From contig JAFRTG010000046.1 in the NCBI GenBank assembly GCA_017427265.1, forward strand, positions 115,533-179,532: a DNA stretch of 64,000 nt, given 5' to 3'. The notes under the pieces are model-generated. The model saw only the letters and a program-made list of their open reading frames with translations. It searched no databases and was not told the DNA's origin. Origin of the DNA: Oscillospiraceae bacterium (GTDB taxonomy: Bacteria; Bacillota; Clostridia; Oscillospirales; Ruminococcaceae). Both the position numbers and the translations under genes were made by a program. This document shows, in pieces, positions 257 to 24,162 of the stretch (positions within the stretch are counted from its first letter, which is position 1; each line of letters starts with the position of its first letter).

Positions 257-267
257 CTGTATTGCGG

Positions 268-9870: not shown

Positions 9871-9900
9871 ATTGAAATCCTCCTTTTTTCGGATGATTTC

Positions 9901-9954
9901 AATATAGCACACCGCATTTTGTTGTATGCTAGTTTACTGCATATTGCAGTAAAC
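9901..9954 (-). promoter_or_regulatory. xre promoter with two operator-like palindromes
   Basis: The minus-strand -10 TATATT (9906-9901) belongs to the xre gene. Within the spacer, 9910-9926 reads CACCGCA-TTT-TGTTGTA. Upstream, 9932-9954 is a perfect 10-3-10 palindrome whose centre is TACTGCA-TAT-TGCAGTA. Both share the 7-3-7 layout of the site at 10019-10035. Confidence 0.65.
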
Positions 9955-10010
9955 GGAGACACGCAAGCTGTCGGACTTGCACAAATTTTGTTTGTTTGTT
10001 GAATTATATA

Positions 10011-10039
10011 TTGACTTTTACTGCATTTTGCGGTATAAT
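10011..10039 (+). promoter_or_regulatory. Promoter of the 10084 gene with operator in the spacer
   Basis: TTGACT (10011-10016), 17-bp spacer, TATAAT (10034-10039). The palindrome TACTGCA-TTT-TGCGGTA occupies 10019-10035, almost the whole spacer, so a bound repressor would exclude RNA polymerase. Confidence 0.75.
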
Positions 10040-10083
10040 AAAAGCAATAAATCGGAGGATGTTCTTCCGTGAGAAAGTGAGGT

Positions 10084-11088
10084 ATGAATATGATGATTTG
10101 TAATCATTGCGGCCAGCAGGTTCAGGACGGAGCTGCACAATGCCCGTTTTGCGGTGCACCTTTGATGCAGCAGATGTATCAGCAAAATGCAGCGCCGAAT
10201 CCACAGTTTGCGCCAAATATGAATGCGCCGCAGCAAGCGCCGAAGAAAAAACACGGCTGCCTCATTGCGGTTTTGGTTGTTGCCGGTCTCGGTTTTATCG
10301 GAATGCTTGGCGGTGCAGGGAAAACAAGGCAGAAGGATTCTGCTAAAGTTGAAGTGGAATCAAGCGAAGCGGCACCGGCGGAAAAGGACGCTGCCTCAGT
10401 TTCGGATGTTGATTCCGAGTCAACAGTGACAGAAGAAAGTTCAACGGAATCGAAAGATGAAAAGAATCGTTTTTCTTATGAAGTGACAAATACCAATTTC
10501 GGTTACTATACTAATTCAATCGGAGATATTGAATATTACGGTTATGTTGAGATTTTGAACACGGGTTCAACGAATCTTTATCTGGATGACTGTACGTTTG
10601 ATTTGGAAGATAATGACGGGCATCTTTTGCAGAGCGATGATTTTATTTTCAGCAGTCCGGATATTATTGCACCGGGAGAAAAAGGATACTTTTATAACGG
10701 TCTGGGCTCCAACCTGATAGATAAGAATGTATCTATGGATAATGGAATCAAATTGGTGCCGAACTTTAAGGTTGAAGAAGCGCGCGGTGAAATCGTTGAT
10801 TATGATATTTCGGATACGGATATGAGAACAGATGATTACGGTGAAATCAAAATCACCGGTCGTATAACCAACAATACAGATCAGGATGACAGCTTGGTAA
10901 GTATCGCGCTTATTCTGTATGACAGTGAAGGAAAAGTATTAGCAATTACCGGAACAAGTGTCATGGATTTGCCGGCTGGATCAACGCAAAGTTTTGAAGG
11001 AAGTACAATGTTTGCTGACGACGCGGCAACCCCGGATAAGGTTGCATCCTATGCGGTCGTTGCAAGAAAAAATTGCATGCAGTTCTAA
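10084..11088 (+). CDS. Zinc-ribbon membrane protein with FxLYD-like extracellular domains
   Basis: This 334-residue protein has an N-terminal zinc ribbon (CNHCG...CPFCG), a Gln/Pro-rich linker, one transmembrane helix (about 58-76), an acidic Ser/Glu linker and two beta-rich repeats resembling FxLYD/DUF5067 domains (VEILNTGSTNLYL, ITGRITNNTDQDD). Its base composition is visibly more AT-rich than that of the neighbouring aro genes, which hints at separate ancestry. The start follows a GTGAGG site, and an in-frame ATG lies 6 bp further on. Its promoter carries the Xre operator, so it is probably the regulated target. Confidence 0.75.
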   Translation: MNMMICNHCGQQVQDGAAQCPFCGAPLMQQMYQQNAAPNPQFAPNMNAPQQAPKKKHGCLIAVLVVAGLGFIGMLGGAGKTRQKDSAKVEVESSEAAPAEKDAASVSDVDSESTVTEESSTESKDEKNRFSYEVTNTNFGYYTNSIGDIEYYGYVEILNTGSTNLYLDDCTFDLEDNDGHLLQSDDFIFSSPDIIAPGEKGYFYNGLGSNLIDKNVSMDNGIKLVPNFKVEEARGEIVDYDISDTDMRTDDYGEIKITGRITNNTDQDDSLVSIALILYDSEGKVLAITGTSVMDLPAGSTQSFEGSTMFADDAATPDKVASYAVVARKNCMQF

Positions 11089-11091
11089 AAC

Positions 11092-11132
11092 ACTCCCCGT
11101 CCCGGAAGCACCCGGAGCGGGGATTCTATCAT
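11092..11132 (+). terminator. Terminator-like hairpin after the 10084 gene
   Basis: TCCCCG-TC-CCGG pairs with CCGG-AG-CGGGGA around an AAGCAC loop, followed by a short T-containing stretch. It is weaker than the other terminators here. Confidence 0.55.
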
Positions 11133-11146
11133 CTCAAAAGCGGATT

Positions 11147-11194
11147 CCAAAGGATTCAATCCTTTGGCGAGGGGGTTGGGGGCGAGGAGCCCCC
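11147..11194 (-). repeat. Palindromic element at the 3' end of the aro operon
   Basis: A perfect palindrome (CCAAAGGATT, one central base, AATCCTTTGG; 11147-11167) is followed by GGGGGTTGGGGGCGAGGAGCCCCC. It looks like an interspersed repeat of this bacterial group and lies right after the last gene of the aro operon, where it may stabilise or terminate the transcript. Confidence 0.5.
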
Positions 11195-11197
11195 ATT

Positions 11198-11638
11198 TCA
11201 ATCCATCGGAGATATCTTATTCACCAGAATGTGAAGGCCCTCGATGTAGCCGGGGAAGCCCTTGCCCTTGACTGTTGCAATGCAGGCCTGCCGGATATAC
11301 GAGATTTTCCGGAACTCGTCGCGCGTGTCGGGGTCTGAGATGTGCACTTCGACCGTCGGAATCTGCACGGCCTTGACCGCGTCCAGCAGTGCGACGCTTG
11401 TATGCGTATACGCCGCCGGATTGATGAGAATGCCGTCTGCGCGGCCGTATGCCGACTGGATTTTGTCCACAAGGTCGCCCTCGTGGTTCGACTGATAACA
11501 CTCCACCGTGATGCCGAGGCGCTCCGCCTCCGTTTCGATCATGGCCGTCAGGTCGGCGAGCGTCTGTGTGCCGTAATGCTCCGGCTCACGGATTCCCAGC
11601 ATGTTCAAATTCGGCCCATTCAGCACGAGTATATGCAC
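11198..11638 (-). CDS. aroQ: Type II 3-dehydroquinate dehydratase
   Basis: This 146-residue enzyme has the normal length for type II dehydroquinase, which converts 3-dehydroquinate to 3-dehydroshikimate in the shikimate pathway. Family motifs are visible: LVLNGPNLNMLGIREPEHYG with the catalytic Tyr, YQSNHEGDLVDKI, INPAAYTHTSVALLDA and VEVHISDP. I chose GTG 11638 because GGAGGG precedes it and the protein then starts where the family starts. This start lies 53 bp inside the end of the upstream aroE-aroK gene. It is the last gene of the operon. Confidence 0.93.
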   Translation of the reverse strand: MHILVLNGPNLNMLGIREPEHYGTQTLADLTAMIETEAERLGITVECYQSNHEGDLVDKIQSAYGRADGILINPAAYTHTSVALLDAVKAVQIPTVEVHISDPDTRDEFRKISYIRQACIATVKGKGFPGYIEGLHILVNKISPMD

Positions 11639-12875
11639 AAAAATCCCTCCAAATCTCCTGCGCCGCATCCGCCGGCGCTTTGTTGTTTTCGATCGCAGTA
11701 TCTGCAAACTTCTGATACAGCGGCATCCGAACCGCTGCCATTGCGTTGAGGTCGGCACCCTGCGAGAGCGGCCGTCCTTCGCGGCTCAGCTGGTCGATCG
11801 GACGGCAGATCTGATAAATGCGGCCGTTGCTGCGGAGCGGCGCTTCGTTCTCTGCGCGTGTGACCACACCGCCGCCCGTGACAAGAATCACGCCGCGGTT
11901 TGCACTCTGCTCCCGCACGACCTCCGATTCGATTTTGCGGAACGTGTCCTCGCCGCCCTCTGCAAAGATCTCCGGAATCGGTTTGCCGGCCTTGCGGACG
12001 ATTTCTGCGTCAAGGTCGATCACGGTTCTGCCGGTCAGCTGACCGAGCGCCTCGCCGATGCAGGACTTGCCGCTGCCGGGCATTCCGATCAGTACGATAT
12101 CTTCGGCATCCGCCTGCATTTTTGCGCCGATTTCCGCGATTTTTGCATCGTCAATCGGCTGCCCGAAGAAGTGCTCTGCGGCCTGCTTGGCTTGTGCGAC
12201 CAGCATCGTCAGGCCGCCGGCATACGGGATGCCGCGTTCTTTTGCCTGCAGCAGAAGCGCTGTCCGCTGCGGATTGTAGATGACCTCCGCGACGCCGCGC
12301 AGGTTCGGGAACTGCGACAGATCAACCAGCGATCTGCCCGCGTTCGGGTACATGCCGACCGGCGTTGCGTTGACAATCAGCGTCGTATCTGCAAAGAATT
12401 TCGGCAGATCGTCATACGTGTACTCCGTGCCGGAAAGATCAAGGACGGTCAGCGACGCACAGCCGTCGAGCTTTGCAATCGCCTGAATGGTCTGCGAGAC
12501 GCCGCCGTTTCCGAGCACAAGCACGTTTGCACCTTCAAAGGAGAGCCCGCCTGCACGCATCATGCAGCGCAGACCGTAGGCATCCGTGTTGTAGCCCTTC
12601 CATGTGCCGTCCGGCTGCCGGACAAGCGTATTCACGCTGCCGATGGCCTCTGCAAGCGGATCGAGCGTTTTGCAGAGCGGGATGACGTTGATCTTATACG
12701 GAATGGTGACATTGAGCGCCTTTAAGCGCGTATCTGCGAGAAAAACCGGAAGCTCGTCCGGCTCCAGCTCATAGAGCGAATACTGCGGATTGCCGAGCGC
12801 CGCGTGAATCTCCGGCGAAATGCTGTGACCGAGCTTCCGCCCGATCAGGCCATACGGTGTTTTGAATTCAGTCAT
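11586..12875 (-). CDS. aroE/aroK: Shikimate dehydrogenase - shikimate kinase fusion
   Basis: This 429-residue protein joins two consecutive pathway enzymes. Residues 1 to about 260 are shikimate dehydrogenase, with GHSISPEIH, the catalytic-Lys segment LNVTIPYK, NTDAYG, a glycine-rich VLGNGGVSQTIQ nucleotide loop and ATPVGMYP. Residues from about 262 are shikimate kinase, with Walker A GMPGSGKS, the IDLDAEI and FRKIESEV segments, a TGGGVV glycine motif and a GRPLS lid segment. The product would take 3-dehydroshikimate to shikimate 3-phosphate. The neighbours aroQ and aroA act just before and after, so the fusion fits the operon. The C-terminal tail overlaps the aroQ start. Confidence 0.95.
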   Translation of the reverse strand: MTEFKTPYGLIGRKLGHSISPEIHAALGNPQYSLYELEPDELPVFLADTRLKALNVTIPYKINVIPLCKTLDPLAEAIGSVNTLVRQPDGTWKGYNTDAYGLRCMMRAGGLSFEGANVLVLGNGGVSQTIQAIAKLDGCASLTVLDLSGTEYTYDDLPKFFADTTLIVNATPVGMYPNAGRSLVDLSQFPNLRGVAEVIYNPQRTALLLQAKERGIPYAGGLTMLVAQAKQAAEHFFGQPIDDAKIAEIGAKMQADAEDIVLIGMPGSGKSCIGEALGQLTGRTVIDLDAEIVRKAGKPIPEIFAEGGEDTFRKIESEVVREQSANRGVILVTGGGVVTRAENEAPLRSNGRIYQICRPIDQLSREGRPLSQGADLNAMAAVRMPLYQKFADTAIENNKAPADAAQEIWRDFCAYTRAEWAEFEHAGNP

Positions 12876-12885
12876 GTGAATCTCC

Positions 12886-13275
12886 TTATTTCTGAAAGCT
12901 GCCGATTTCGATCAAATTGCCCTCGGGGTCTGCGACATAGCAGGTGCGCTGTCCCCACAGCATAGTCTGCGGGGCCATGACAGGCTCCGCGCCTGCTGCG
13001 ACAACTCTTGCAAATTCTGCATCGACACCCGCATAATTTCCGGCATTGAGCGCAATTTCATAGTGCCCGATTCTGCCGGAGGCGTATGTAAACTGTTGCT
13101 GCGTCATCTGCTCGAAATCGCTGCGGCGATAAAGCAGAAACAGCGTGCCGTCCTTTTCCAGAAAAACATTTGAGGTGTTTTCGTCCTCTTTGATCGCAAA
13201 GCCGAGGACGTCGCGGTAAAAACGTACCATAACCGCCATATCCTTGACAAAAATGCCGAAGCCGTCTAAATGCAT
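12886..13275 (-). CDS. VOC-superfamily (glyoxalase/dioxygenase-like) protein
   Basis: This 129-residue single-module protein has two beta-alpha-beta-beta-beta halves typical of the vicinal-oxygen-chelate fold: an FVKDMAVMVRFYRDVLGF start, IGHYEIAL in the middle, and a TCYVADPEGNLIEIGSF ending with the last metal ligand Glu. Substrate unknown. ATG 13275 follows AAAGGAG; longer upstream frames lack a site. It is co-oriented and closely spaced within the aro operon, but there is no evidence that it acts on aromatic intermediates. Confidence 0.85.
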   Translation of the reverse strand: MHLDGFGIFVKDMAVMVRFYRDVLGFAIKEDENTSNVFLEKDGTLFLLYRRSDFEQMTQQQFTYASGRIGHYEIALNAGNYAGVDAEFARVVAAGAEPVMAPQTMLWGQRTCYVADPEGNLIEIGSFQK

Positions 13276-13289
13276 GAGAGCTCCTTTCA

Positions 13290-13962
13290 TTACTGATCGT
13301 TGACGAATAAAAATGTACGCGGAATGGAGGGCACGAGCCGGAAGGTCTCGCAGCAATATTCTCCGTCTTTGGTCACGGGTCTCGCGGACGGTTTCTCTTC
13401 GGTACGCTCGCCCTCCGGTACAGTTGCAAAGCGTGTGTGCTTGTTCTGATAGCTTTGATCATCGAAATCCGTGATGTTCCTGCACGGATAAAACAGGTGC
13501 AGCCAGACGATCTGATCAGCCGAGACATGATATGCCTTGGATGCGATGGAAGCATGTCGGGTACCGGCACCGTCAAAGACGGAGGGATCCGGCGGGGTGA
13601 TCTCCTCAAAATGCGGCGTGCAAGCTATTGGTTGACCGGCATCAAAATGCGGATCATCGCTGACGATCCAGAAGAAATCTCCGAACTGCTGTAGCTGATA
13701 GTCGTGAAATTCGGCCTGATACACAGGCGGATTGCCCGTGCGTGTCAGCTTCCGGTACTGCGGACAGCAGACAGGCAGTCTCGCCTGCAGACCGCACCTC
13801 AGCTGAGAATCCGTATTTTCCCTGAATATAGCGCACGGCATTTTCAGCCCCCTGTGCTTCCCACTGCGCATTCAACGCACGCTGTTCCTTGCTGTAGCAC
13901 GATGTCAGCAGCAAGGAACAGAGGGCAGACAGCGTACATAACCTACGCAGATGATAGTGCAT
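13290..13962 (-). pseudogene. Lipoprotein gene interrupted by a frameshift
   Basis: The first part (from ATG 13962, behind GGAGGTGGGAAT) encodes a signal peptide with lipobox LLTSC and about 80 further residues. The frame then runs into unrelated Ser/Arg-rich sequence and stops at 13654. A coding-like continuation exists in another frame, open from 13871 and clearly protein-like from about 13750 to the stop at 13290 (VYQAEFHDYQLQQFGDFFWI...). Joining the frames around 13745-13790 gives one lipoprotein of about 220 residues. It is either a decayed gene or a sequencing or assembly indel. Function unknown; it lies between pheA and the VOC gene. Confidence 0.7.
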
Positions 13963-13999
13963 ATTCCCACCTCCGAATCAGGCGGATATTGTGGAACGC

Positions 14000-15145
14000 T
14001 CAGCCGATCATTTCGGTATAATTGCCGAGCAGCGTAAACGAATCGCAGGAGCGCTCCAGCTCGCAGAGCAGACCGAGCACGCCTTCCTGATGCAGATTGC
14101 ACTCAAGATCCATATAAAAGCGGTACGAGAAATTCGTGCCGGGGATCGGCATACTTTCCAGCTTGCACATGTTGATGCCGAGCGCAGAAATCTTTGCGAT
14201 GATCTGATTCAGCGCGCCGGGCGAGTTTGCGCAGTTGACGAGAATGCTCATGCGGTCGGCGCCGGCATAGCACGCAGCGCCCTTTGTGATACATAAAAAG
14301 CGCGTATCATTGTTGCTTTCGTTCTGAATCTGATCGGTGAGAACGGAGAGCGAATAGAGCTTTGCACAGGCCTCTCCGGCAATCGCCGCAACCGATTTGT
14401 CATGCGCTTCTGCAGCGCGCTGCGCAGCGTGCGCGGTACTCGTACAGGGGATCACATCGACACCGAGCTCCTGCAGGAAGCGGCTGCACTGTCCGGCGGC
14501 CTGTTCATGCGTATAAACCGTTTTGAGATCGGAGAGCTGCGCGTCCGGCTGCGTCAGCAGAACGTGACGGATCAGCTGGCGGACGCTGCGGACAATGCAG
14601 ATATCCGGTTCGCGGAGCAGATCGTAAACCTGCCGCACAGAGCCCTGTACGCTGTTTTCAACCGGTAAGATGCCGAATTGGCAGAGCCCCGCCTGTACTG
14701 CGTGTACAACTGCCGCAAACCCGTCCATGAAGATAATATTGCCTTTTGGGAAAAGACGGTCGGCAGCGGCGCCTGCATGGCTACCTTCTACGCCGGAGAC
14801 AGCAACGCGGCCGGACTGCGGGAAGATCGCCTGCTCGTGCGCACACATGGCTGCAACACGCGCAGCGACGCTCGTGGCAGGAATCAGCTGAGCGGCCTGT
14901 CTGGCGCGGGAAAGCTCCAGAATCAGGCGAAAGAGCTGGTGTGCGGAATCACCGAATTCAGCTCCGGATTTTTCGCGTATCTGCATCAAAATCTGACGCT
15001 CCCGGACGGGATCGTAAAGCGGACGCGAAGGATCGCGCTTTTTGATATCGGCGACCTTGTCAATGAGCGACATGCGTTGCAGAAACAGATTGAGCAGCTG
15101 CGAATCAATGCTGTCCAGCTGCGAACGGATTTCTGTTAATTCCAT
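14000..15145 (-). CDS. pheA: Bifunctional chorismate mutase / prephenate dehydratase (P-protein)
   Basis: This 381-residue protein opens with an AroQ-class chorismate mutase helix bundle (LTEIRSQLDSIDSQLLNLFLQR, residues about 1-85), followed by a prephenate dehydratase domain and a C-terminal ACT domain. The ACT domain is marked by NSPGALNQIIAKISALGINMCKLESMPI, the ESRP-like site that normally binds phenylalanine, here with ESMP in place of ESRP. It commits chorismate to phenylalanine. Start at ATG 15145 after AAAGGAG. In the dehydratase domain the usual TRF motif appears as NNDTRFLCI. The ESRP to ESMP change may affect feedback inhibition, which is inference. Confidence 0.95.
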   Translation of the reverse strand: MELTEIRSQLDSIDSQLLNLFLQRMSLIDKVADIKKRDPSRPLYDPVRERQILMQIREKSGAEFGDSAHQLFRLILELSRARQAAQLIPATSVAARVAAMCAHEQAIFPQSGRVAVSGVEGSHAGAAADRLFPKGNIIFMDGFAAVVHAVQAGLCQFGILPVENSVQGSVRQVYDLLREPDICIVRSVRQLIRHVLLTQPDAQLSDLKTVYTHEQAAGQCSRFLQELGVDVIPCTSTAHAAQRAAEAHDKSVAAIAGEACAKLYSLSVLTDQIQNESNNDTRFLCITKGAACYAGADRMSILVNCANSPGALNQIIAKISALGINMCKLESMPIPGTNFSYRFYMDLECNLHQEGVLGLLCELERSCDSFTLLGNYTEMIG

Positions 15146-15156
15146 AGAAAACTCCT

Positions 15157-15486
15157 TTATTTACGTTTGTTTTTTTCTCCCATCAAGACTGCCGTGCATA
15201 GCACATAGATGACAGTTACAGGCAGCAGAACAGCATTCACGAGAAACAGCTTGCTGTTATGGAAGAATATTGCTGCGGCATTGACCAGCATGATGACCCC
15301 TACAAGTATCATCACAACACCGCTCTGACGATAATAAGGCTTCGGATCCGGCTTTTCCGTTTGGTCACCGGGATACAGGTTGTTCAGCAGCGGCCCGCGG
15401 CACGAAAGCTGTCTGCCGCCGACGAGAAAGGCTGCAAATGCCACTGCAACCAGAATGAACAGCGTCACAATTTCACCGATACTCAT
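15157..15486 (-). CDS. Small membrane protein in the aro operon
   Basis: This 109-residue protein has three hydrophobic helices (about 6-24, 55-75 and 80-102) and a basic tail. No family recognised. It sits between aroC and pheA with short gaps (40 and 11 bp), so it is probably co-transcribed. Its ribosome site (AGAAG) is weak. Confidence 0.6.
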   Translation of the reverse strand: MSIGEIVTLFILVAVAFAAFLVGGRQLSCRGPLLNNLYPGDQTEKPDPKPYYRQSGVVMILVGVIMLVNAAAIFFHNSKLFLVNAVLLPVTVIYVLCTAVLMGEKNKRK

Positions 15487-15526
15487 ATCTGAGACTTCTG
15501 TTTCATATGCAGAAAATCACGATGCT

Positions 15527-16639
15527 TCATGTTTTTTCACTGACATTTGAAAAGGAATCGCTGCAGCAGAGCATCGCATCGAGAGCGACAAGCGCTGCAA
15601 CGGCTTCCACCACGGGGACTGCACGCTGCGCAATGCAAGGATCGTGGCGGCCCTTAATTTCCAGCACTGTATCTGCTCCGTCGGGCAGAGAAACGGTCTG
15701 CTGCGGCTTCGAGATCGACGGTGTCGGCTTGATCGCAACACGGAACCGCACCGGCATACCGGTTGTGATACCGCCGAGAATGCCGCCGTTACGGTTCGTG
15801 TTTGTAATGATATTGCCGTTTTCGTCCGTGCAGAACGGATCATTTGCAGCGGAGCCGCGCATTTCCGAAAGAGCAAAACCGTCTCCGAATTCAAGCCCCT
15901 TGACCGCCGGAATGCCGAAGAGCGCCCGCGCCAGACGGTTTTCCATGCCGTCAAACATCGGGTCACCGAGACCGGCCGGAAGCCCGGTTACAACGCATTC
16001 GATTGTGCCGCCGATGGAATCCTGATCTTCTCGCGCAGCAAGAATCTCCGCCTGCATTTTTTCGCCCTGCGTGTCAGAAATGACGGGGAACATTTTATCT
16101 GCAATCTCAGCAAAGAGCGCCTGATCGGGCAGCATCGGGAACGGATCGTCCTTGACAGATCCGATGGATGATAAGTGCGCACCTACGTATATTCCACGCC
16201 GTTCAAGGGCTTGCAGTGCCATTGCGCCGACAGCGCAGAGCGGCGCCGTCAGACGCCCCGAAAAATGACCGCCGCCGCGCATATCCGCATGACCGTGCCA
16301 TTTCCGATAAGCCGTAAAATCAGCATGGGACGGACGCGGCTTGAGGACAAGATTGTTATAATCCCCGGAGCGGGTATTCGTATTCGCAATCCGGATGCAC
16401 ACCGGAAAACCGGTCGTTTTATTCTCGAAAATACCGGAGACAAACTCCGGAATGTCCGGTTCCCTGCGGGAAGTCGAGAGTGCATTTCGACCGCCCTGAC
16501 GGCGTTCCATAAAACGAAGCAAGCGGTCGGTGTAGATTGTCTCGCCGGCCGGAAATCCCTCTGCCACTGCACCGATGCCGTTGCCGTGGGACTCACCGAA
16601 CACGGAAATGCGCAGGCGTTCGCCAAATTGAGAAGCCAT
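15527..16639 (-). CDS. aroC: Chorismate synthase
   Basis: This 370-residue enzyme makes chorismate from 5-enolpyruvylshikimate 3-phosphate, using reduced FMN. Family signatures are visible: GESHGNGIGAVAEGFPAG near the N-terminus, RRQGG, the central RPSHADFTAYRKWHGHADMRGGGHFSGR segment (shorter spans of which define the family), and GGITTGMPVRFRVAIKPTPSI near the C-terminus. The start follows AAAGGAGG. It lies downstream of aroA in the operon. Confidence 0.97.
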   Translation of the reverse strand: MASQFGERLRISVFGESHGNGIGAVAEGFPAGETIYTDRLLRFMERRQGGRNALSTSRREPDIPEFVSGIFENKTTGFPVCIRIANTNTRSGDYNNLVLKPRPSHADFTAYRKWHGHADMRGGGHFSGRLTAPLCAVGAMALQALERRGIYVGAHLSSIGSVKDDPFPMLPDQALFAEIADKMFPVISDTQGEKMQAEILAAREDQDSIGGTIECVVTGLPAGLGDPMFDGMENRLARALFGIPAVKGLEFGDGFALSEMRGSAANDPFCTDENGNIITNTNRNGGILGGITTGMPVRFRVAIKPTPSISKPQQTVSLPDGADTVLEIKGRHDPCIAQRAVPVVEAVAALVALDAMLCCSDSFSNVSEKT

Positions 16640-16678
16640 AGACAGCCTCCTTTAATTGCAATATTGTTTCAAAACGGA

Positions 16679-17956
16679 TTATTCCGGCTCAGCCTCTGCA
16701 ATGCCGCCGAGTGCGCGGTAGTCATCGAAGAAAGCCGGATAGGATTTATTGACAGCCTCAGCGCCGAGGATGCGAACCGGGGATTTGCATCTCAGCGCGG
16801 CGACTGCTGCTGCCATGACAAGACGGTGATCATTTTGCGCGTTGACCGTGCCGCCGTTCAACTGTCCTCCGTAGACGGTCAATCCGTCATCGTGTTCATC
16901 GACATTTCCGCCGAGTGCCCGAAGCATGTCGGCCGTTGACTGTAAACGGTCGGATTCTTTTAAGCGCAGTCGCTCGGCATTGAGAAAGTGCGATTCACCG
17001 TCAGAAACTGCTGCGAGAATCGCCAGAATCGGAAGCAAATCCGGGATTTCCCGCATAGATACGTCAAATTTCTTGATTGTTCCACATGAAACAATAATTT
17101 CATTCTCGTGTACTTGAATATCTGCTCCGACAGACTTCAATATGTGTGTGATTTCTTTATCACCCTGTACAGAATCAGAATGCAGCCCGCGAAGTGTGAT
17201 CGCTCCGCTGCTTTGGATTGCACCCGCAGTCAGCCAGAATGCAGCATTCGACCAGTCGCCATCAACACGGATTCGATTGGGAAACTGAAGAATCTGCTTG
17301 CCTTTTATATCGTAGGAAAGTTGGCCGCCTTCATCGGAAATCTCTACAGCTACGCCAAATTCACGCAATGTATCAAGTGTCATATCGACATAAGCTGCTG
17401 ATTGAAGCGGCGTTGTCAGACGGATTTTGCTGTCCTGATCGCAGAGCGGCAGCGCCATCAGGAGACCGCTGAGAAACTGAGAACTGATATTGCCCGGAAT
17501 CTCATAGAGGCCGCCGGTTAATCGCCCTGCTGCAGAAATCGGCAGAGAGTTTGCAGAAAACTGTACGCCGTGAGCGGACATTTCATCTGTCAATACAGAA
17601 ATCGGCCGTTCCGGAAGACGTCCGGAACCTGTCACAGAAATATTCTTGCAGACGCACATGGCGACCGGAAGAAGGAACCGCAGTGTTGATCCGCTTTCTC
17701 CGCAGTCAAGGACAGCGTGCGGTTGCTCCTGAATCGGGGATACAAACAGCCCGTTTTCAGTCTGCTGAAAGGATGCGCCGAGTGCCGTCAGACACCGAAT
17801 GGTAGCTGCAATATCGTCACAAAATGGCGGAAAAATCGGCAAACAGCCGCCGTTTTGTGATAAAGCCGCACAGATCAGCTTGCGGTGCGCATCTGATTTT
17901 GAGGGAATCGCATTCAACGAACCCTGCAGGGATGCGGGGCGACAAATCAAATTCAT
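16679..17956 (-). CDS. aroA: 3-phosphoshikimate 1-carboxyvinyltransferase (EPSP synthase)
   Basis: This 425-residue protein has the family length and motifs: IPSKSDAHRKLICAAL at the N-terminus (usual P-S-K-S), DCGESGSTLRFLLP, GRLPERPI, SSQFLSGLLMALP, VDGDWSNAAFWL, and a C-terminal KESDRL and NDHRLVMAAAV. It transfers enolpyruvate from PEP to shikimate 3-phosphate. The first codon overlaps the aroB stop by 4 bp (17953-17956), so aroB and aroA are translationally coupled. Confidence 0.97.
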   Translation of the reverse strand: MNLICRPASLQGSLNAIPSKSDAHRKLICAALSQNGGCLPIFPPFCDDIAATIRCLTALGASFQQTENGLFVSPIQEQPHAVLDCGESGSTLRFLLPVAMCVCKNISVTGSGRLPERPISVLTDEMSAHGVQFSANSLPISAAGRLTGGLYEIPGNISSQFLSGLLMALPLCDQDSKIRLTTPLQSAAYVDMTLDTLREFGVAVEISDEGGQLSYDIKGKQILQFPNRIRVDGDWSNAAFWLTAGAIQSSGAITLRGLHSDSVQGDKEITHILKSVGADIQVHENEIIVSCGTIKKFDVSMREIPDLLPILAILAAVSDGESHFLNAERLRLKESDRLQSTADMLRALGGNVDEHDDGLTVYGGQLNGGTVNAQNDHRLVMAAAVAALRCKSPVRILGAEAVNKSYPAFFDDYRALGGIAEAEPE

Positions 17957-19023
17957 GCCTCGTCCTCCAATCCGGAAGCGAACAACGCTTCAAGTTCAGA
18001 GATCGGCATTTTATGCATACGGCAGCGACCGATTGTCTCCGGCAGGATTACCGTAATCTCAGATGCTGCTGCTTTTTTATCAACAGCCGCAATTTTTGCC
18101 ATGTCTGATGCAGAATACGGGCATTTCACCGGCAGCCCGCTTCGCAAAATCGTATTCAAAATGCGCGTATTATCGTCTGATTTCATGATTCCCATTTTGA
18201 CTGCGGCACGCGATACAATCGCAGTGCCGATCGAAACGGCATGTCCGTGGGAAATTTCAAAGTTGCTCAGCCGTTCGATCGCGTGAGCTGCTGTGTGCCC
18301 AAGATTTAACAATTTCCGTACACCGTGTTCCTCCGGATCTTCGGTGACGATCATTGATTTATAAGCAACAGCTCTGGAAATGATATTAACCAATTCATTA
18401 GCCGGATCGCTTTTTTCATAAATAGAAAAAAGCTCAGGATCACCGAGAATTCCTGTTTTGATCGCTTCTGCGGCACCGTCTGCCATTTCGTGCGGCGTAA
18501 GAGTCTTGAGCGTATCAACATCACAATAAACGCCCTTTGGCTGATGAAAGAGTCCTGCGAGATTTTTTCCGTGCTCCAAATTGATTGCCGTTTTGCCGCC
18601 GACTGACGCATCTACGGCGGAAAGCAGAGTTGTCGGAATCTGAATAAAGCGTATTCCGCGCAGATAACAGCCTGCTGTGAAGCCGGTCAGGTCACCGATG
18701 ACACCGCCGCCAAGCGCTGCCGCCAGATCAGTTCGTGTCATTTTGGCTTCTGCAAACGCCTCAAGCAGTTCACTGAAAACCGCAGCAGATTTGCTGTCCT
18801 CCCCTGCGGGAACAATGTGCGCAAATACAGAAAAGCCAGCATCTTCAAAGGATTTCTTTGCTGTCGCAAGATAAAGCGGAGCGACATTGCTGTCTGTGAC
18901 AATCATAATGCGGCATGGCTTGATTCGTTCCGCGGTCATCTGGCCGACTTGCGCAAGAAGGTTGTGACCTGTGACGATCGGATACGATTCGCCCTGCGGA
19001 GTGGTTAGAATTTGCGTTTTCAT
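17953..19023 (-). CDS. aroB: 3-dehydroquinate synthase
   Basis: This 356-residue NAD-dependent enzyme converts DAHP to 3-dehydroquinate. Visible motifs are the GGGVIGDLTGFTAG nucleotide-binding loop, the TTLLSAVDASVGGKTAIN segment, the EAIKTGIL metal/substrate segment, and GHTAAHAIE and HGHAVSIG carrying metal-ligand His residues. The start follows AAGGAG. It overlaps aroA by 4 bp and lies 39 bp after tyrA. Confidence 0.97.
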   Translation of the reverse strand: MKTQILTTPQGESYPIVTGHNLLAQVGQMTAERIKPCRIMIVTDSNVAPLYLATAKKSFEDAGFSVFAHIVPAGEDSKSAAVFSELLEAFAEAKMTRTDLAAALGGGVIGDLTGFTAGCYLRGIRFIQIPTTLLSAVDASVGGKTAINLEHGKNLAGLFHQPKGVYCDVDTLKTLTPHEMADGAAEAIKTGILGDPELFSIYEKSDPANELVNIISRAVAYKSMIVTEDPEEHGVRKLLNLGHTAAHAIERLSNFEISHGHAVSIGTAIVSRAAVKMGIMKSDDNTRILNTILRSGLPVKCPYSASDMAKIAAVDKKAAASEITVILPETIGRCRMHKMPISELEALFASGLEDEA

Positions 19024-19062
19024 ATAGATGGTTCTCCTTAATCAGGCGAAATATGCATAGGG

Positions 19063-19902
19063 TTAGTTTCCGCCTGCAGAGGCCTTTGCGATGCGTCCCT
19101 CACGCAGACACGCACAAAGCGCCTCGGCATCATTGTTTTCCAGTGCATCCAGATACGGTTTCAGATTGTCAATCAGGATGCGAAGTTCTTCCGCAAGATA
19201 CTCCCTGTTATCGAGCATCAATTCTGTCCACATTTTTTCGTCGAGACGCGCCACTCTTGTCAGATCACGGAAGCTGCCCGCAGAAAATCCACGGCGCTTC
19301 TGTGCGGTCGGTGACTTGACATATGCACCCGAAACGATGTGCGCGAGCTGAGACGTGTAAGCAATAATGCGGTCGTGCTCGTCGGGATTGGAAAATGTCA
19401 GATGCGCAAAACCGATGTCGGTAAAGTAATTTTTCAGCATTTCCAATGTCGGGAGATCGGTATTGGCATCCGGTGTCAGAATCATGGATGCACCGTCAAA
19501 CAGTCCCTCCGAAGCATTGACAAACCCGCCCTGCTCCTTGCCGGCCATCGGGTGACCGCCGATATAGCGGAAGCCGTTCTTCTGCGCAAGATCAGCCATT
19601 TCACCGACGACACAACGCTTTACACCGCAAATATCTACCAAAATGCATTTGGCTCGTCCGAGCGTCACTGCGTGCTCTTCTGTCCATTTGAGTGCTGCGC
19701 CCGGCCGCAGCGCAACGAGCACCAGATCGCAAGTTTCGAGCAGTTCGTCGGTCAGTGCCTGATCCATTGCGCCGGTCATCCGGGCGAACATCATGACCTC
19801 CTGATCGAGGTCATAGCCGTAAACTGTATGTAAAGTACGTGATTTCGTGGCTTTTGCGTAGGAACCGCCAATCAGTCCCAAGCCGATGATTGCAATATTC
19901 AT
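19063..19902 (-). CDS. tyrA: Prephenate dehydrogenase
   Basis: This 279-residue enzyme has an N-terminal Rossmann fold (MNIAIIGLGLIGGSYAKA) and the helical dehydrogenase domain, with GGHPMAGKEQGGF and the FRDLTRVAR catalytic-region motif. It makes 4-hydroxyphenylpyruvate on the tyrosine branch. No C-terminal ACT domain is visible; the length matches the short form. Start ATG 19902 follows GGGGGAA and overlaps the upstream acetyltransferase stop by 4 bp (ATGA). Confidence 0.95.
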   Translation of the reverse strand: MNIAIIGLGLIGGSYAKATKSRTLHTVYGYDLDQEVMMFARMTGAMDQALTDELLETCDLVLVALRPGAALKWTEEHAVTLGRAKCILVDICGVKRCVVGEMADLAQKNGFRYIGGHPMAGKEQGGFVNASEGLFDGASMILTPDANTDLPTLEMLKNYFTDIGFAHLTFSNPDEHDRIIAYTSQLAHIVSGAYVKSPTAQKRRGFSAGSFRDLTRVARLDEKMWTELMLDNREYLAEELRILIDNLKPYLDALENNDAEALCACLREGRIAKASAGGN

Positions 19903-20678
19903 GTCTGATTCCCCCGATTCATTTCCGCAATTTTGTCCAATCCGGCAGCGTTCATTTCTGTCCACGCCGGGCGGAATCCTGCCTTGACTGCATTGCGCGC
20001 CGAAGGCAGATTGCACCACGCGCAGCAGTAAAACGGTATTTTATTATGCTTCAGAATTTCGATTGCAAGCTGTGACGTCAGTGCGGCGGCGATGCCTCTT
20101 TTCCGGTAATCCGGGAGAACATCTATGCCGATCTGCCACATTTGCTCGCAGTCTGCAGAGCATCCGGCAAGTCCGACCAGCTTGTCACCGTCGAATGCAC
20201 CGACACCCAGAACATCCAGTTCTGCGCGCTTTTCACATAATGCATTTGACCACTGCGGCTGATAAAGCGGTGCAAAATCAGCCTGTGTCAGAATGCGCGT
20301 TTCATAATCACACTTCAGCGGCTGCAGGAGATTGACATCCGGCAGCCAGTATTCCGCTGTCATGGAAACGCCTGCGCCGAGCGGCCGGAGTGCTTCATGC
20401 AGGACATGCAGATGCGGCGGCTCAAAGCTGTGCGCCAGCGGAAAACGGTTCAGATAATCCCGGACAACACTGATGCATTCTGTCGTTGCTGATGCAACGA
20501 TATTGCTGCCGTAACTGACAAAATATGCCGGATAAGGCAAATTCAGGTAACGCCTTGCTGCCGGAGGGGCCGCTGCCGGAACAATCACAGGCTTATCCCG
20601 CAGAAAATCACCCGGATCACATCCAAGATCAATCGCGGACTGCTGCATTGCGATTGCCAAAATATCCCGGTTTTTCAT
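19899..20678 (-). CDS. GNAT-family N-acetyltransferase in the aro operon
   Basis: This 259-residue protein has a C-terminal GNAT fold: the acetyl-CoA loop appears as IGIDVLPDYRKRGIAAALTS, a Q/R-x-x-G-x-A pattern variant, followed by CNLPSARNAVKAGFRP. The N-terminal 140 residues are a family-specific extension. Substrate unknown. It is placed between aroF and tyrA, with 4-bp overlaps on both sides or nearly so, implying co-translation. A direct role in aromatic metabolism is not established. Confidence 0.85.
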   Translation of the reverse strand: MKNRDILAIAMQQSAIDLGCDPGDFLRDKPVIVPAAAPPAARRYLNLPYPAYFVSYGSNIVASATTECISVVRDYLNRFPLAHSFEPPHLHVLHEALRPLGAGVSMTAEYWLPDVNLLQPLKCDYETRILTQADFAPLYQPQWSNALCEKRAELDVLGVGAFDGDKLVGLAGCSADCEQMWQIGIDVLPDYRKRGIAAALTSQLAIEILKHNKIPFYCCAWCNLPSARNAVKAGFRPAWTEMNAAGLDKIAEMNRGNQT

Positions 20679-20682
20679 GATT

Positions 20683-21684
20683 TTACTGCATAAACTCGTG
20701 CAGGCTGTGCAGCTTCTTGGCGAGTGCATCGAAGGCTTCCGGCTTGATCGACTGCGGTCCGTCGCAGACTGCATGTTCCGGATCATTGTGCACCTCGATA
20801 ATCAGACCGTCTGCCCCTGCCGCGACTGCAGCCGGTGCGATTTTCGGAACCATCCAGGCTTTTCCGCAGGCATGGGACGGATCCACGATGACCGGCAGAT
20901 GCGTCAGGTGCTTGAGCACTGTGACAGCGCCGATATCAAGAATATTACGTGTATACGTCTCAAACGTGCGGATACCGCGCTCGCAGAGAATGACATTATG
21001 GTTGCCGCCGGACATGATATATTCGGCGCTCATCAGCCACTCCTCATATGTTGCGGAGAGGCCGCGCTTGAGCAGAACCGGCTTTTCCTGAAGGCCGAGC
21101 TCTTTGAGCAGCGAAAAATTCTGCATATTCCGTGCACCGACCTGAATCACATCGACATCCTTGAATGCGGGCAGATGCTCCGCGTCCATGATTTCGGTGA
21201 CGATCGGCAGACCGGTTTCCTCACGGGCGATTTTCAGCAGCTCCAGCCCTTCGACACCCATGCCCTGAAACGAATAGGGCGAAGTGCGCGGTTTGAAGGC
21301 GCCGCCGCGGAGCATTGTAGCGCCGCTTGCCTTGACCTGCTTTGCGATGGCGACGATCTGCTCCTCACTTTCGACGGAGCAGGGACCTGCCATCAGCGTG
21401 AGCGTGCCGCCGCCGATCTGCGCATCGCGGACACGGATGACGGTCGGCTCCGGATGGAACTTGCGGTTTGCGTGCTTATAGGGCTCCTGCACGCGCTTGA
21501 CATCCTCGACGATTTCGAGTGCGGAGATCAGGTCGGGGTCGATTGCGGCGGTATCACCGACAAGTCCGAGAATGGTATGCGAGGTTCCTACGCTCTTGTT
21601 GACGTCGATGTGCTTTTCTTCGAGCCACGCAATCAGACTTTCAAGCTGCGCAGGATTCGGATTTTGCTTCAAAACAACGATCAT
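20683..21684 (-). CDS. aroF: 3-deoxy-7-phosphoheptulonate (DAHP) synthase with N-terminal regulatory domain
   Basis: This 333-residue enzyme condenses PEP and erythrose 4-phosphate, the first step of the shikimate pathway. Residues 1 to about 70 form the ferredoxin-like domain of the class Ibeta/AroF-FXD type (IVVLKQNPNPAQLESLIAWL), known in relatives to mediate Tyr/Phe feedback. The barrel follows, with AGPCSVES, the GGAFKPRTSPYSFQG segment, LLKRGLSAT and VDPSHACGK. ATG 21684 is chosen because AAAGGAC precedes it; upstream lies the attenuator. It is the first structural gene of the operon. Confidence 0.96.
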   Translation of the reverse strand: MIVVLKQNPNPAQLESLIAWLEEKHIDVNKSVGTSHTILGLVGDTAAIDPDLISALEIVEDVKRVQEPYKHANRKFHPEPTVIRVRDAQIGGGTLTLMAGPCSVESEEQIVAIAKQVKASGATMLRGGAFKPRTSPYSFQGMGVEGLELLKIAREETGLPIVTEIMDAEHLPAFKDVDVIQVGARNMQNFSLLKELGLQEKPVLLKRGLSATYEEWLMSAEYIMSGGNHNVILCERGIRTFETYTRNILDIGAVTVLKHLTHLPVIVDPSHACGKAWMVPKIAPAAVAAGADGLIIEVHNDPEHAVCDGPQSIKPEAFDALAKKLHSLHEFMQ

Positions 21685-21713
21685 AATAACTGTCCTTTCA
21701 GGGAATATAAAAC

Positions 21714-21745
21714 AAGCGCTCACAGCCGGCGGGCTGCGAGCGCTT
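21714..21745 (-). terminator. Leader terminator (attenuator) of the aro operon
   Basis: On the minus strand AAGCGCTCGCAGCC pairs with GGCTGTGAGCGCTT (one G-U pair) around a 4-nt loop, followed by GTTTTATATT. It lies between the leader peptide stop (21788) and the aroF start (21684). Its left arm can instead pair with leader codons 30-36, so termination and antitermination are mutually exclusive. Confidence 0.85.
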
Positions 21746-21787
21746 TGCATTCATATAACGGAATCCCGCGGAAAACCGCAAAAACCA

Positions 21788-21901
21788 TTATGCTGTGCAA
21801 ACGAATTCAGCCGCACCGAATCTGACCTCACCGTAATAATAGCCGGTAAAGCCGTAAAATCGGTATTCAGCTGCAACATTCATGTGTTCGCTGCCAGACA
21901 T
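21788..21901 (-). CDS. Tyr/Phe-rich leader peptide of the aro operon
   Basis: This 37-codon ORF starts at ATG 21901 behind GAGGAAAGGAAG and ends at TAA 21788. It encodes 5 Tyr (13, 16, 21, 22, 23) and 4 Phe (15, 18, 28, 33), with seven aromatics in the eleven residues 13-23 (YRFYGFTGYYY). The ORF lies between a consensus promoter and a terminator ahead of aroF, the layout of classical transcription attenuation. The peptide itself probably has no function; its translation rate would report charged tRNA-Tyr and tRNA-Phe. Confidence 0.85.
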   Translation of the reverse strand: MSGSEHMNVAAEYRFYGFTGYYYGEVRFGAAEFVCTA

Positions 21902-21936
21902 AGTGATTGCGCTTCCTTTCCTCGGATGATGCTATC

Positions 21937-21965
21937 ATTATAGCACAAGAAAACAGGAAATGCAA
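21937..21965 (-). promoter_or_regulatory. Promoter of the aro operon
   Basis: On the minus strand TTGCAT (21965-21960), 17-bp spacer and extended -10 TGCTATAAT (TATAAT at 21942-21937). Transcription would start about 30 nt before the leader-peptide ATG. Confidence 0.8.
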
Positions 21966-22019
21966 TAGGCAATCTGCACAAAGTTTTAATGCATTAAAGC
22001 GTTTAAGTTTTAAATCGTA

Positions 22020-22238
22020 TTATTTATAGGGTCTCTTATGATCGGTGAGACCAAGCATGTAATCAGTACTGGTCCCGTAATATTCCGCGAGCTTGATAAT
22101 GACCTCGACCGGCACAATGCGCATACCGCGCTCGTATTTGGAGTAGAGTGACTGATCGCAGAATAAATATTCACAGATTTCTTTTTGCGTTTTATCGTGG
22201 TCAATTCTCAGATCACGAATTCTTGAAAAAAATAGCAT
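22020..22238 (-). CDS. Xre-family transcriptional regulator
   Basis: This 72-residue Cro/C1-type helix-turn-helix protein (RIRDLRIDHDKTQKEICEYL, then YSKYERGMRIVP) is similar in plan to the regulator at 9634. ATG 22238 follows AAGGAG; the longer upstream frame lacks a site. It lies just upstream of the aro promoter in the same orientation with about 55 bp between its stop and the aro -35, so some readthrough into the aro leader is possible. Its target is unknown. Confidence 0.88.
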   Translation of the reverse strand: MLFFSRIRDLRIDHDKTQKEICEYLFCDQSLYSKYERGMRIVPVEVIIKLAEYYGTSTDYMLGLTDHKRPYK

Positions 22239-22583
22239 GACGTTTGCTCCTTGATTATCATTATACAATCTGGAATGATTGGATTTGTATAGTGGCATTA
22301 TAACACTTTTTACTCGTTTTTGGTATTTTTTGGACAATGTGGCTTGCTTAAATGAATAGAAAAAACATGGGAAAATTAAGAAAACACGGCCTTAAATGGA
22401 TTATTTTGCGGTATATAGGCGCGATTCGTTATTGATTCAAATAAATAGATGTGTATGATCGTATCGGAACACGTTTTTTCTGTATTCACTTTCCGGCGCA
22501 GCTGTACCGGATGTGTGTATGCTTCTGCACTCCCCCTTTGCGTGATATGCTGTACGCTTTTCAGCGGCACTGCCTGTCCGTTG
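22239..22583. promoter_or_regulatory. AT-rich intergenic region with xre promoter and palindrome
   Basis: Two minus-strand TATAAT boxes (22265-22260 and 22302-22297) can serve the xre gene. TATACAA (22262-22268) and TTGTATA (22285-22291) form an inverted repeat around the proximal -10 and may be its operator. The remaining part up to the mreB stop at 22584 shows no gene or clear terminator. Confidence 0.5.
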
Positions 22584-23594
22584 TCAGGACTGGGTGTAGC
22601 TGTCAATGCGCTCGAATCCGTCGAGCAGGACGTCTCTGCGGCGGAAGGCCTGTTCCGTGCCGCGAGCGACGCATGTCAGCGGATCCTTGGCCGTTCGGCA
22701 CGGAACGCCCAGCATGCGCGTCAGATACTGCTCCAGCCCGCCGAGCAGCGCACCGCCGCCCGTGAGCAGAATGCCGTTTGCGCAGATATCGCCGACCAGC
22801 TCCGGCGGTGTTTCCTCCAGTACGCGGCGGATCGTTTCACCGATCTCGTTGATATCGTCCTCAAGTGCCTCGAACAGCTCCGCCTCGCTCAGATCGCACT
22901 GATCGGGCAGCCCGCGGGAAATGTTGCGCCCCTTGACCTGTGCAATGACATCTTCGCCCGGATTATACAGATTGCAGAGTGAGATTTTCACCTGCTCCGC
23001 AGATTTTGCGCCAAGCAGAATGTGATATTTGTTCTGGACATACCGGATGATTGACTGGTCAAACTTATTTCCGGCCGTTTTCAGCGAGCGCGCCGTTACG
23101 ATGCCGTTCATCGAGACGACCGCAACATCTGTTGTGCCGCCGCCGATGTCAACAACCATGTGGCCGACCGGCCGGTTGATTGCAATGCCTGCGCCGAGCA
23201 GCGCGGCCAGCGGCTCCTGAATCAGATGCACCTTGCGCGAGCCCGTGCTCATCGCCGCATCGAGGATTGCACGCTTTTCGACGTCCGTAATCAGCGACGG
23301 CACGCAGATGACAATGCGCGGCCGGATGATATGTGCACCGGCGGCCGCGTCGATCAGCTCACGCATCAGCGCCTGCGTCAGAATATCGTCCGAGATGACG
23401 CCGTCCTGCAGCGGATGCACGACCGCGATATAGGAAGGGGAGCGCCCTTCCATTTTATAGGCTTCCTCACCGACGGCGACGACGCGCTCCGTGCGCTTGT
23501 TGAAGGCGATGACGGAAGGTTCGTTCAGCACAACGCCGTGCCGCCGCTTGGTAATGATGATATTCGCCGTACCAAGGTCAATTCCGATATCCAT
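22584..23594 (-). CDS. mreB: MreB-family rod-shape actin homologue
   Basis: This 336-residue protein has the full actin-like fold: IGIDLGTANIII at the N-terminus, LIQEPLAALLGAG, the phosphate-2 loop VVDIGGGTTDVAVVS, and the adenosine motif ILLTGGGALLGGLEQYL near the C-terminus. It forms membrane-associated filaments that guide cell-wall synthesis. No mreC/mreD genes follow; the upstream partners are acetyltransferases, so this may be an Mbl/MreBH-like paralogue rather than the mreBCD-operon copy. The start follows AAAGGA and overlaps the preceding gene by 17 bp. Confidence 0.93.
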   Translation of the reverse strand: MDIGIDLGTANIIITKRRHGVVLNEPSVIAFNKRTERVVAVGEEAYKMEGRSPSYIAVVHPLQDGVISDDILTQALMRELIDAAAGAHIIRPRIVICVPSLITDVEKRAILDAAMSTGSRKVHLIQEPLAALLGAGIAINRPVGHMVVDIGGGTTDVAVVSMNGIVTARSLKTAGNKFDQSIIRYVQNKYHILLGAKSAEQVKISLCNLYNPGEDVIAQVKGRNISRGLPDQCDLSEAELFEALEDDINEIGETIRRVLEETPPELVGDICANGILLTGGGALLGGLEQYLTRMLGVPCRTAKDPLTCVARGTEQAFRRRDVLLDGFERIDSYTQS

Positions 23595-24162
23595 ACAGTG
23601 TATCCTTTCGTTTCTTCTGTTCAGGTTTCTCTATACAATAACATACTTCGCCGTCCGGGGATTCCCCCAGCCTGCGGAAGCGTTCAACGGTTTCTGTCCG
23701 GTGCATGGCCGATTTTTGCAGCACGCGCCCGGATTTCGGGTTTGCGGCGCGGTGATAGGCTTCGAGCTTTGTGAATTCCGTCTGTGAAAAAGTCCTGTCT
23801 ATGACGGCTGCAAGCGCTTCGCCTGCATAGCCGTGCCCCCAGAAGTCTGCACCGATGCAGTATTCGATCTCGGCGGTATTGCAGTCCTCCCAGACCTTGC
23901 AGAACGCAATCTGTCCGATGTTCTGCCCGGTTTCCCGCAGGACGATCGCCCAGCGGTAGAAATCCGGCCGCGCATAGCCTGCAAGATATTGCTGCAGCAG
24001 ACCGCAGACGGCTTCCGGCGTGTCATAGACCGGCTCGCCGTATTCGGGCTGCACCCGCGGATCCGAAGCCCAGTTCTGCAGCATATCGGCGGCGTCATCC
24101 GGCAGGAAGCGGCGCAGGATCAGCCTTTCTGTTATAATCGTATGTGTGCCGGCGTGCTTCAT
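23578..24162 (-). CDS. GNAT-family acetyltransferase (RimJ/RimL-like)
   Basis: This 194-residue protein begins with TIITERLILRRFLPDDAADM, the classic RimJ/RimL-type start, and has IGQIAFCKV, IEYCIGADFWGHGYAGEAL (acetyl-CoA loop) and AYHRAANPKSGRVLQK. The substrate may be a protein N-terminus or a small molecule. ATG 24162 overlaps the upstream stop (ATGA); an alternative ATG at 24174 is possible. Confidence 0.9.
   Translation of the reverse strand: MKHAGTHTIITERLILRRFLPDDAADMLQNWASDPRVQPEYGEPVYDTPEAVCGLLQQYLAGYARPDFYRWAIVLRETGQNIGQIAFCKVWEDCNTAEIEYCIGADFWGHGYAGEALAAVIDRTFSQTEFTKLEAYHRAANPKSGRVLQKSAMHRTETVERFRRLGESPDGEVCYCIEKPEQKKRKDTLYGYRN

Follow-up and report, generated by a model that had tools for sequence, protein, structure and literature searches.

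Leader-peptide attenuators of the trp, phe, his and thr operons, trpL and pheL among them, are known from Proteobacteria, and in these classical systems the choice between alternative stems is made during transcription. T-box leaders bind tRNA directly, without translation.

A 2010 survey stated in its available text that, the atypical ermC aside and to its knowledge, no leader peptide had been shown outside Proteobacteria and Actinobacteria before its own His leaders of bacilli (PMC2965389). In the accessible part of a later paper, leader-peptide attenuation with His codons is described for Eubacteriales, Erysipelotrichales and the B. cereus group (PMC9413887). For aromatic amino acid synthesis, the uORFC-13-1 motif ahead of Acholeplasma aroF, represented by 24 sequences of Acholeplasma or environmental origin, combines a uORF carrying at least one Phe codon with an intrinsic terminator; attenuation has been proposed for it, with Phe alone mentioned in the available excerpts (PMC8632094). 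Excerpts of a further paper, which analyse five other genomes, present two candidate uORFs that lie at shikimate genes and contain Phe and Tyr codons (PMC6429828), and other uORFs appear in the accessible text of PMC11109978. According to the available passages of PMC2494555, a T-box precedes the tyrosine operon in the B. cereus group.

Here we analyse the leader ahead of aroF in a stretch of 64,000 nucleotides (the window) taken from a 3.8-Mb draft genome. Its sequence and its conservation in relatives indicate that it is very probably a ribosome-mediated transcription attenuator responding to Tyr/Phe shortage.

Organization of the aroF leader locus

A preliminary description of this DNA had listed a promoter, a 37-codon ORF with five Tyr and four Phe codons, a terminator and then aroF, all of which we recovered on the minus strand. 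The elements, in window positions and in transcriptional order, are the following.

21937..21965, minus strand: leader promoter TTGCAT-17-TATAAT, from the sequence, with the -35 TTGCAT at 21965-21960, the -10 TATAAT at 21942-21937 and a 17-nt spacer; TGC precedes the -10
21912..21922, minus strand: Shine-Dalgarno-like sequence AGGAAAGGAAG of the leader ORF, from the sequence
21788..21901, minus strand: leader ORF of 37 codons with 5 Tyr and 4 Phe, from the sequence, translation predicted
21859..21874, minus strand: region 1, 5' arm of the 1:2 stem, codons A-A-E-Y-R, from folding and alignment
21824..21853, minus strand: inner hairpin of the 1:2 stem, GGCTTTACCG/CGGTGAGGTC, 97.5% of cells paired
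21808..21819, minus strand: region 2, TCGGTGCGGCTG, partner of region 1 or region 3, from duplexes, alignment and the folding model
21796..21803, minus strand: second antiterminator segment, CGTTTGCA, from duplex folding
21728..21749, minus strand: region 3, TGCAAAGCGCTCGCAGCCCGCC, antiterminator partner and terminator 5' arm, from the terminator scan, duplexes and alignment
21714..21745, minus strand: intrinsic terminator (3:4 stem, 14 pairs) with GTTTTAT after the stem, from the terminator scan and folding
20683..21684, minus strand: aroF, 3-deoxy-7-phosphoheptulonate synthase, first controlled gene, PRK08673 and DAHP_synth_Bsub above cut-offs
11198..20682, minus strand: remaining presumed operon, 11 ORFs, from NCBIfam/Pfam, co-transcription presumed

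The leader peptide, MSGSEHMNVAAEYRFYGFTGYYYGEVRFGAAEFVCTA, carries Tyr-Tyr-Tyr at codons 21-23, and with its start codon and Shine-Dalgarno sequence the ORF appears translatable. The intrinsic terminator lies between the leader ORF and aroF and ranked first in the terminator scan of window positions 4000-23800. Folding of the 241-nt leader RNA gave -93.9, compared with -70.8 in dinucleotide shuffles (sd 4.3, z -5.4, reached by 0/200). An Rfam scan of the window at the gathering score returned two tRNAs only, lower thresholds giving chance-level matches. A riboswitch or other Rfam RNA at the leader was rejected, the scan having no match to the window leader, as was a T-box (RF00230) at the window aroF, the T-box covariance model being without match in the window.

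Both pairings proposed in the preliminary description for the terminator's 5' arm, GCGGCTG with the CAGCCCGC stretch and CGTTTGCA (21803-21796) with TGCAAAGCG (21749-21741), were found to exist, and the region 2:3 duplex in the window has an energy of -22.3 kcal/mol (duplexfold). A third element, absent from that description, is the 1:2 (anti-antiterminator) stem formed by 21874-21859 with 21819-21808. The Tyr-Tyr-Tyr codons sit inside or beside the loop of its inner hairpin.

Around the promoter, a conserved stretch at 21982-21961 (minus strand), TTTGTGCA-n-TTGCCTATTGCA, lies 5' of the -10 and recurs at the same place in several relatives; it is perhaps an operator in addition to the -35 region. 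A small HTH protein (22020-22337, minus strand) adjoins the leader promoter on its upstream side, showing weak likeness to RstR (37 bits at a cut-off of 80), and is a possible regulator.

The start codon of aroF (ATG at 21684, minus strand) opens a series of twelve same-strand ORFs, matching the 12 genes previously proposed, which from their spacing presumably form one transcript. After aroF, the presumed operon contains tyrA, aroB, aroA, aroC, a DUF3784 protein gene and chorismate mutase/prephenate dehydratase, and it also holds a glyoxalase-like protein gene, an aroE-aroK fusion, aroQ and two unmatched ORFs. Curated NCBIfam cut-offs were exceeded by aroF, aroB, aroA and aroC, and Pfam cut-offs by aroQ, the DUF3784 protein and the glyoxalase-like protein; tyrA, chorismate mutase/prephenate dehydratase and the aroE-aroK fusion drew many family-model matches, all below cut-offs, and the two further ORFs gave no match over the cut-off in the NCBIfam search. 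In ORF 11586-12875 (minus strand), shikimate dehydrogenase-like residues (~7-252) are joined to shikimate kinase-like residues (~259-413), again with matches below cut-offs.

Conservation of the leader within the genus

Within the genus, aroF is present in 28/30 genomes and the leader lies directly 5' of it in 15 of the 28. A covariance model (R1) built from these 15 direct leaders and run on longer upstream stretches identified a leader 1.5-1.8 kb 5' of aroF in 10 more genomes, with scores of 104-147 bits, and these distant leaders keep the promoter, start codon, aromatic core and terminator. The assumption that 13/28 genomes miss the leader was thus rejected. At a contig end in L069 the terminator half alone was found (31.6 bits), the upstream sequence available for L068 was 122 nt, and in L077, where a transporter gene is present, the leader was not found in the ~256 nt beyond the transporter.

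The codons for amino acids that the operon produces are clustered and conserved. Among four core aromatic codons in 25 genus leaders, 98/100 positions stay aromatic, both losses occurring in L023 and L029, and the changes comprise 13 synonymous TAC/TAT exchanges and three replacements of one aromatic residue by another, one Y to W and the others F to Y. Overall, 25.6% of the residues in the 25 leaders (859 in all) are F, Y or W. Likewise, AGGAGG was matched at four or more of six positions ahead of 22/25 genus leaders in the Shine-Dalgarno check. As judged by eye, the core as far as region 2 varies in length in steps of three nucleotides, with one exception in L029, where the 1-nt difference falls 3' of the leader stop codon. 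The leader ORF stops ahead of region 2 in L023, L029 and L076; as read from these sequences, the early stops fit a trp-type geometry but show that the ORF end is free to vary.

The comparison of relatives that the preliminary description had suggested found conservation of the ORF and its aromatic codons as well as of the terminator and the stems competing with it, and the outcome it had named as contrary, an ORF or stems unconserved in relatives, did not appear.

Pairing, covariation and partner swaps

Three structures (1:2, 2:3 and 3:4) were set by eye on alignment A2 of 15 genus leaders. The 1:2 consensus pairs GCAGCYGAAUACCGA with UCGGUxxGGCUG, enclosing GGCUUUAUC/GAUAAGGUC, and the 2:3 antiterminator consensus pairs GGUxxGGCUG with CAGxCxxxxC. 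For the 1:2 stem and the terminator together, 90.2% of cells were paired in the 15 leaders, with 30-41% in slid controls. Nine of these pairs had changed on both sides compared with 4.9 in shuffles (reached by 2/500), 21 cells were doubly changed compared with 7.0 (0/500), and further pair types numbered 30 compared with 27.0 (31/500). The terminator helix was 96.9% paired in the 15 relatives, with double changes at five pairs. The 1:2 stem overlaps the aromatic codons, its outer helix being weaker, with 77.2% of cells paired in the 15 leaders.

The antiterminator was 88.4% paired, a value reached by 0/500 shuffles and by no slid control (at most 51.5%), and its covariation score was 0.169 compared with 0.112 in shuffles (3/500). 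Doubly changed pairs, of which there was one (UA/AU/CG; reached by 419/500), and further pair types, of which there were seven (184/500), were not above shuffles, and these are the two measures least inflated by relatedness, as kinship among sequences can inflate covariation.

Partner swaps gave further evidence. In the genus, using a tight window, regions 2 paired with their own region 3 at -15.8 kcal/mol compared with -13.5 kcal/mol when region 3 was swapped between genomes (1/20,000 permutations). When all sets were pooled into 103 non-redundant loci, region 2 gave -16.35 with the native terminator arm compared with -14.28 with swapped arms (sd 0.26, 0/5,000), and the real region 2 beat a shuffled region 2 at its own arm in 81/103 loci. 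Unlike the tight window, a looser region-2 window showed no excess in 12 genus rows (median rank 0.475, mean z -0.01). An antiterminator competing with the terminator is hence indicated by the partner swaps, the pairing percentage and the covariation score, not by the double-change counts. Since the counts rest on related sequences and on structures set by eye, they are not independent tests, and they provide strong support for the terminator and the 1:2 stem and fair support for the antiterminator.

Ribosome position and stem choice

We modelled the ribosome as a 30-nt mask on transcripts ending ahead of the terminator 3' arm. In the window, masking the aromatic codons raised the 2:3 pairing from 0.58 to 0.99, and a ribosome on the last codon gave a 2:3 pairing of 0.08. 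For the 15 relatives, masking the aromatic codons lowered the mean 1:2 pairing from 0.78 to 0.29, and stalling raised the mean 2:3 pairing from 0.04 to 0.27, with a rise of at least 0.1 in 8/15 and low values in the rest. Contrary to the model, a last-codon ribosome leaves the 2:3 pairing at 0.78 and 0.49 in L025 and L026, respectively.

On a longer window transcript, a ribosome on codons 10-18 and 23 resulted in a 2:3 pairing of 0.98-0.99, and stalls at Tyr 21 and 22 in only 0.60 and 0.71, compared with 0.51 without ribosome. The full-length equilibrium fold with a masked ribosome contained the terminator in every case and was set aside as uninformative; the decision would accordingly have to be kinetic and made during transcription.

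Proposed mechanism and alternative explanations

The conserved ORF, codons and stems in relatives support the trp/phe-type attenuation reading of the preliminary description, which would operate as follows. RNA polymerase would start ~30 nt ahead of the 37-codon leader ORF. With tRNA-Tyr and tRNA-Phe charged, the ribosome would cross the Y-R-F-Y-G-F...Y-Y-Y codons and cover or pass region 2; with region 2 blocked, regions 3 and 4 would pair, the terminator would form and aroF would be silent. When Tyr or Phe is scarce, the ribosome would stall at codons 13-23 and the 1:2 stem would be broken. The freed region 2 (GGTGCGGCTG...CGTTTGCA) could then pair with the terminator 5' arm, and antiterminated transcription would reach aroF and then the remaining genes for shikimate, Phe and Tyr synthesis. 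We infer that the signal is charged tRNA-Tyr/Phe, with stalling on uncharged tRNA, that the 12 genes are regulated jointly and that premature termination takes place in cells.

Alternatively, a structured RNA, either a riboswitch or a protein-binding leader, could sense the signal directly, the ORF being a by-product of the conserved RNA. Its core nucleotides CGATTTTAYGGCTTT are indeed highly conserved in the genus, and the RNA core is kept in L023 and L029 despite the early ORF stop. We nevertheless consider this very unlikely: the 13 TAC/TAT exchanges and three aromatic swaps stand against only two losses of aromatic codons, length changes of the core ahead of the stop come in threes, and in L024 and L025 aromatic-codon changes accompany broken outer 1:2 pairs. 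Moreover, other families keep the aromatic ORF while the RNA letters differ strongly, and the window leader is without an Rfam riboswitch match. Another idea is that a constitutive terminator limits aroF and that the small expressed peptide has a function of its own. The strong terminator and the conservation of the peptide core in the genus would suit this idea, but peptides diverge widely between families, where the wealth of aromatic residues is nonetheless retained and region 2 still pairs with the terminator arm, making it extremely improbable.

Attenuation could also be real and yet sense generally slow translation instead of Tyr/Phe charging. The folding model leaves some room for this, as a modelled ribosome at codon 10 (Ala) in the window frees region 2 equally to one at Tyr 13; against it stand the share of F, Y and W among the leader residues given above and the downstream genes, which synthesise those same amino acids, so that we regard it as unlikely.

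Occurrence beyond the genus

A family-wide model search gave matches in 53/297 genomes at E <=0.01. Taking these matches at face value was rejected, as 7 of the 25 matched loci inspected (L040-L064) were not ahead of aroF and 18 were 5' of it. In these leaders from other genera of the family the layout is the same and the letters are different; their terminator arms vary widely (e.g. CCCGCAGC..GCTGCGGG), and by eye the segment 3' of the aromatic codons again matches the terminator 5' arm. By fixed criteria, an aromatic ORF with terminator was found at 58/64 named aroF loci outside the genus; together with 16 counted with the genus, these form the 80 named loci, the best 80 of 575. They include a cultured species, Oscillibacter valericigenes Sjm18-20 (AP012044.1, L105), with the leader peptide MSTFTFAAEYRYFSFTYYFGKAYFGLAENECV. 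Among the same best 80 of 575, the aroF proteins nearest to the genus from outside belong to Oscillibacter and kin, at about 75% identity, compared with at most 67% over full length for other sampled genera of its own family. This closeness is a hint, read from protein identities, that the operon and leader may have been shared between families by horizontal transfer.

For the order, we collected 97 further loci (the family search contributed 28 and the order search 29, and 40 were fetched; one genome occurs twice), of which 13 were dropped because the aroF start was unplaceable. The 84 kept comprised 64 with leader and terminator, 3 with leader only, 4 with terminator only and 13 with neither, in samples that are not random, since loci were selected by aroF closeness. 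Shuffled upstream regions yielded an aromatic ORF with terminator in 3/1,680 cases, compared with the 64/84 real order loci. Outside the order, 22/29 loci of the class set were placeable, with leader and terminator in 9, leader only in 7, terminator only in 1 and neither in 5. The control had previously been ascribed to this lineage: the leader is there, but it is not peculiar to it, as at least one leader-plus-terminator locus occurs in 16/18 sampled families of the order and leaders are found in some other Clostridia too.

Family f11 has the leader in 1/8 loci, and a T-box lies ahead of aroF in 2 of the remaining 7 (L276, L281). The earlier remark on T-boxes in the lineage is fair, as the window genome itself carries a T-box 154 nt 5' of trpE. 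Further T-box matches in this genome (among L001-L006 and L284), as assigned by eye, precede valS-, aspS- and tryptophan-synthase-beta-like genes and two acyl-CoA-synthetase-like genes.

Two further groups of leaders were observed. In L152 and L153, MAGs labelled Victivallales, a Phe/Tyr/Trp leader (FYFYYGYWWF) stands ahead of aroF, followed by a terminator seen by eye and missed by the terminator scan; transfer, convergence or a mislabelled MAG may account for these leaders. Within the window's family, L162, L169, L175, L177, L181, L184 and L185 form, as recognised by eye, a second class of leaders, with terminators related to GCCGGTGCTTTTGG..CAAAAGCACCGGC and some peptides ending like GFYFSAGFFCC.

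A transporter gene between leader and aroF

In ten relatives (L065-L067 and L070-L076), leader and aroF are separated by an oppositely oriented gene for a sodium-dependent transporter, as arranged in L066:

2505-2675, minus strand: leader
1128-2501, plus strand: transporter
1-999, minus strand: aroF

The best solved-structure match of the transporter is 4us3 (3e-80), the next reaching 2e-42 (LeuT-type entries); we take 4us3 to be MhsT, which transports hydrophobic and aromatic amino acids. Between the end of the leader match and the transporter stop lie 1-26 nt. TATAAT-type leader promoters were found in 10/10 of these relatives, and the transporter's own promoter, TTGACG-17-TATGAT (TAGAAT in one genome), in 9/10. 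The terminator scan found no leader-strand terminator between leader and aroF in any of the 10 inserted loci, and no promoter toward aroF scored above 9 of 12 there.

In the aroF tree, both Oscillibacter outgroups have the direct form, and the direct and inserted forms need four changes, at least two of them forced by well-supported branches. No copy of the transporter was detected in the window genome. Elsewhere in the genomes, the leader was absent beside the transporter at 7/8 transporter loci checked; the eighth, L286, a 4.7-kb contig bearing a second leader in a genome where a direct leader is present as well, is probably MAG contamination, and a linkage of leader and transporter elsewhere was rejected. 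As judged from its upstream sequence, L077 is evidence that the inserted form can occur without the leader.

A leader that had lost its target would be expected to decay, yet this one is kept, so that read-through across the antisense strand of the transporter into aroF would be the simplest reading of these sequences. A weak aroF promoter in the gap of 128-329 nt may offer another explanation. Under the read-through reading it is possible, though on balance doubtful, that antitermination upon starvation yields an importer-antisense transcript reaching aroF, whereby one leader peptide would choose between import and synthesis in an attenuation-driven excludon. The inserted form provides a natural test case for antisense control driven by attenuation.

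Relation to known attenuators

Among the literature matches listed, with subscription papers and supplements outside their scope, there was no earlier report of the aroF leader. As Phe/Tyr uORFs at shikimate genes have already been predicted in the available text of PMC6429828 and PMC8632094, it is new only as an example. Compared from text alone, it resembles the former candidates as a Phe/Tyr-codon uORF at shikimate genes. Compared by description, it shares with uORFC-13-1 a Phe-codon uORF and a terminator before aroF; unlike that motif as described in the accessible text, it has Tyr as well as Phe codons, occurs in many Clostridia families and has stems tested by covariation and partner swap. 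The His attenuators, going by the available portion of PMC9413887, likewise occur in Firmicutes, including some Clostridia, but carry His codons and belong to the his operon.

The T-box (RF00230) resembles the predicted aroF attenuator in sensing tRNA charging and controlling a terminator, and differs in binding the tRNA directly instead of through translation. With leaders in most sampled families of the order and a T-box instead at the two f11 loci, the evolution of T-box versus leader-peptide control becomes testable, and aroF leaders become easy to annotate.

Common to the aroF leader and the proteobacterial attenuators are an ORF rich in codons for the product, three mutually exclusive stems and a terminator before the first structural gene. 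Unlike these, the aroF leader belongs to a different phylum, the likeness proposed being one of layout; it precedes the shared shikimate trunk together with both the Phe and the Tyr branches, and it has codons for two amino acids, plus Trp in some relatives. On the sequence evidence, the aroF leader is a new, unexpectedly widespread case of predicted ribosome-mediated attenuation, placing a mechanism long held to be proteobacterial and actinobacterial at the entry gene of aromatic synthesis across most sampled families of one clostridial order.
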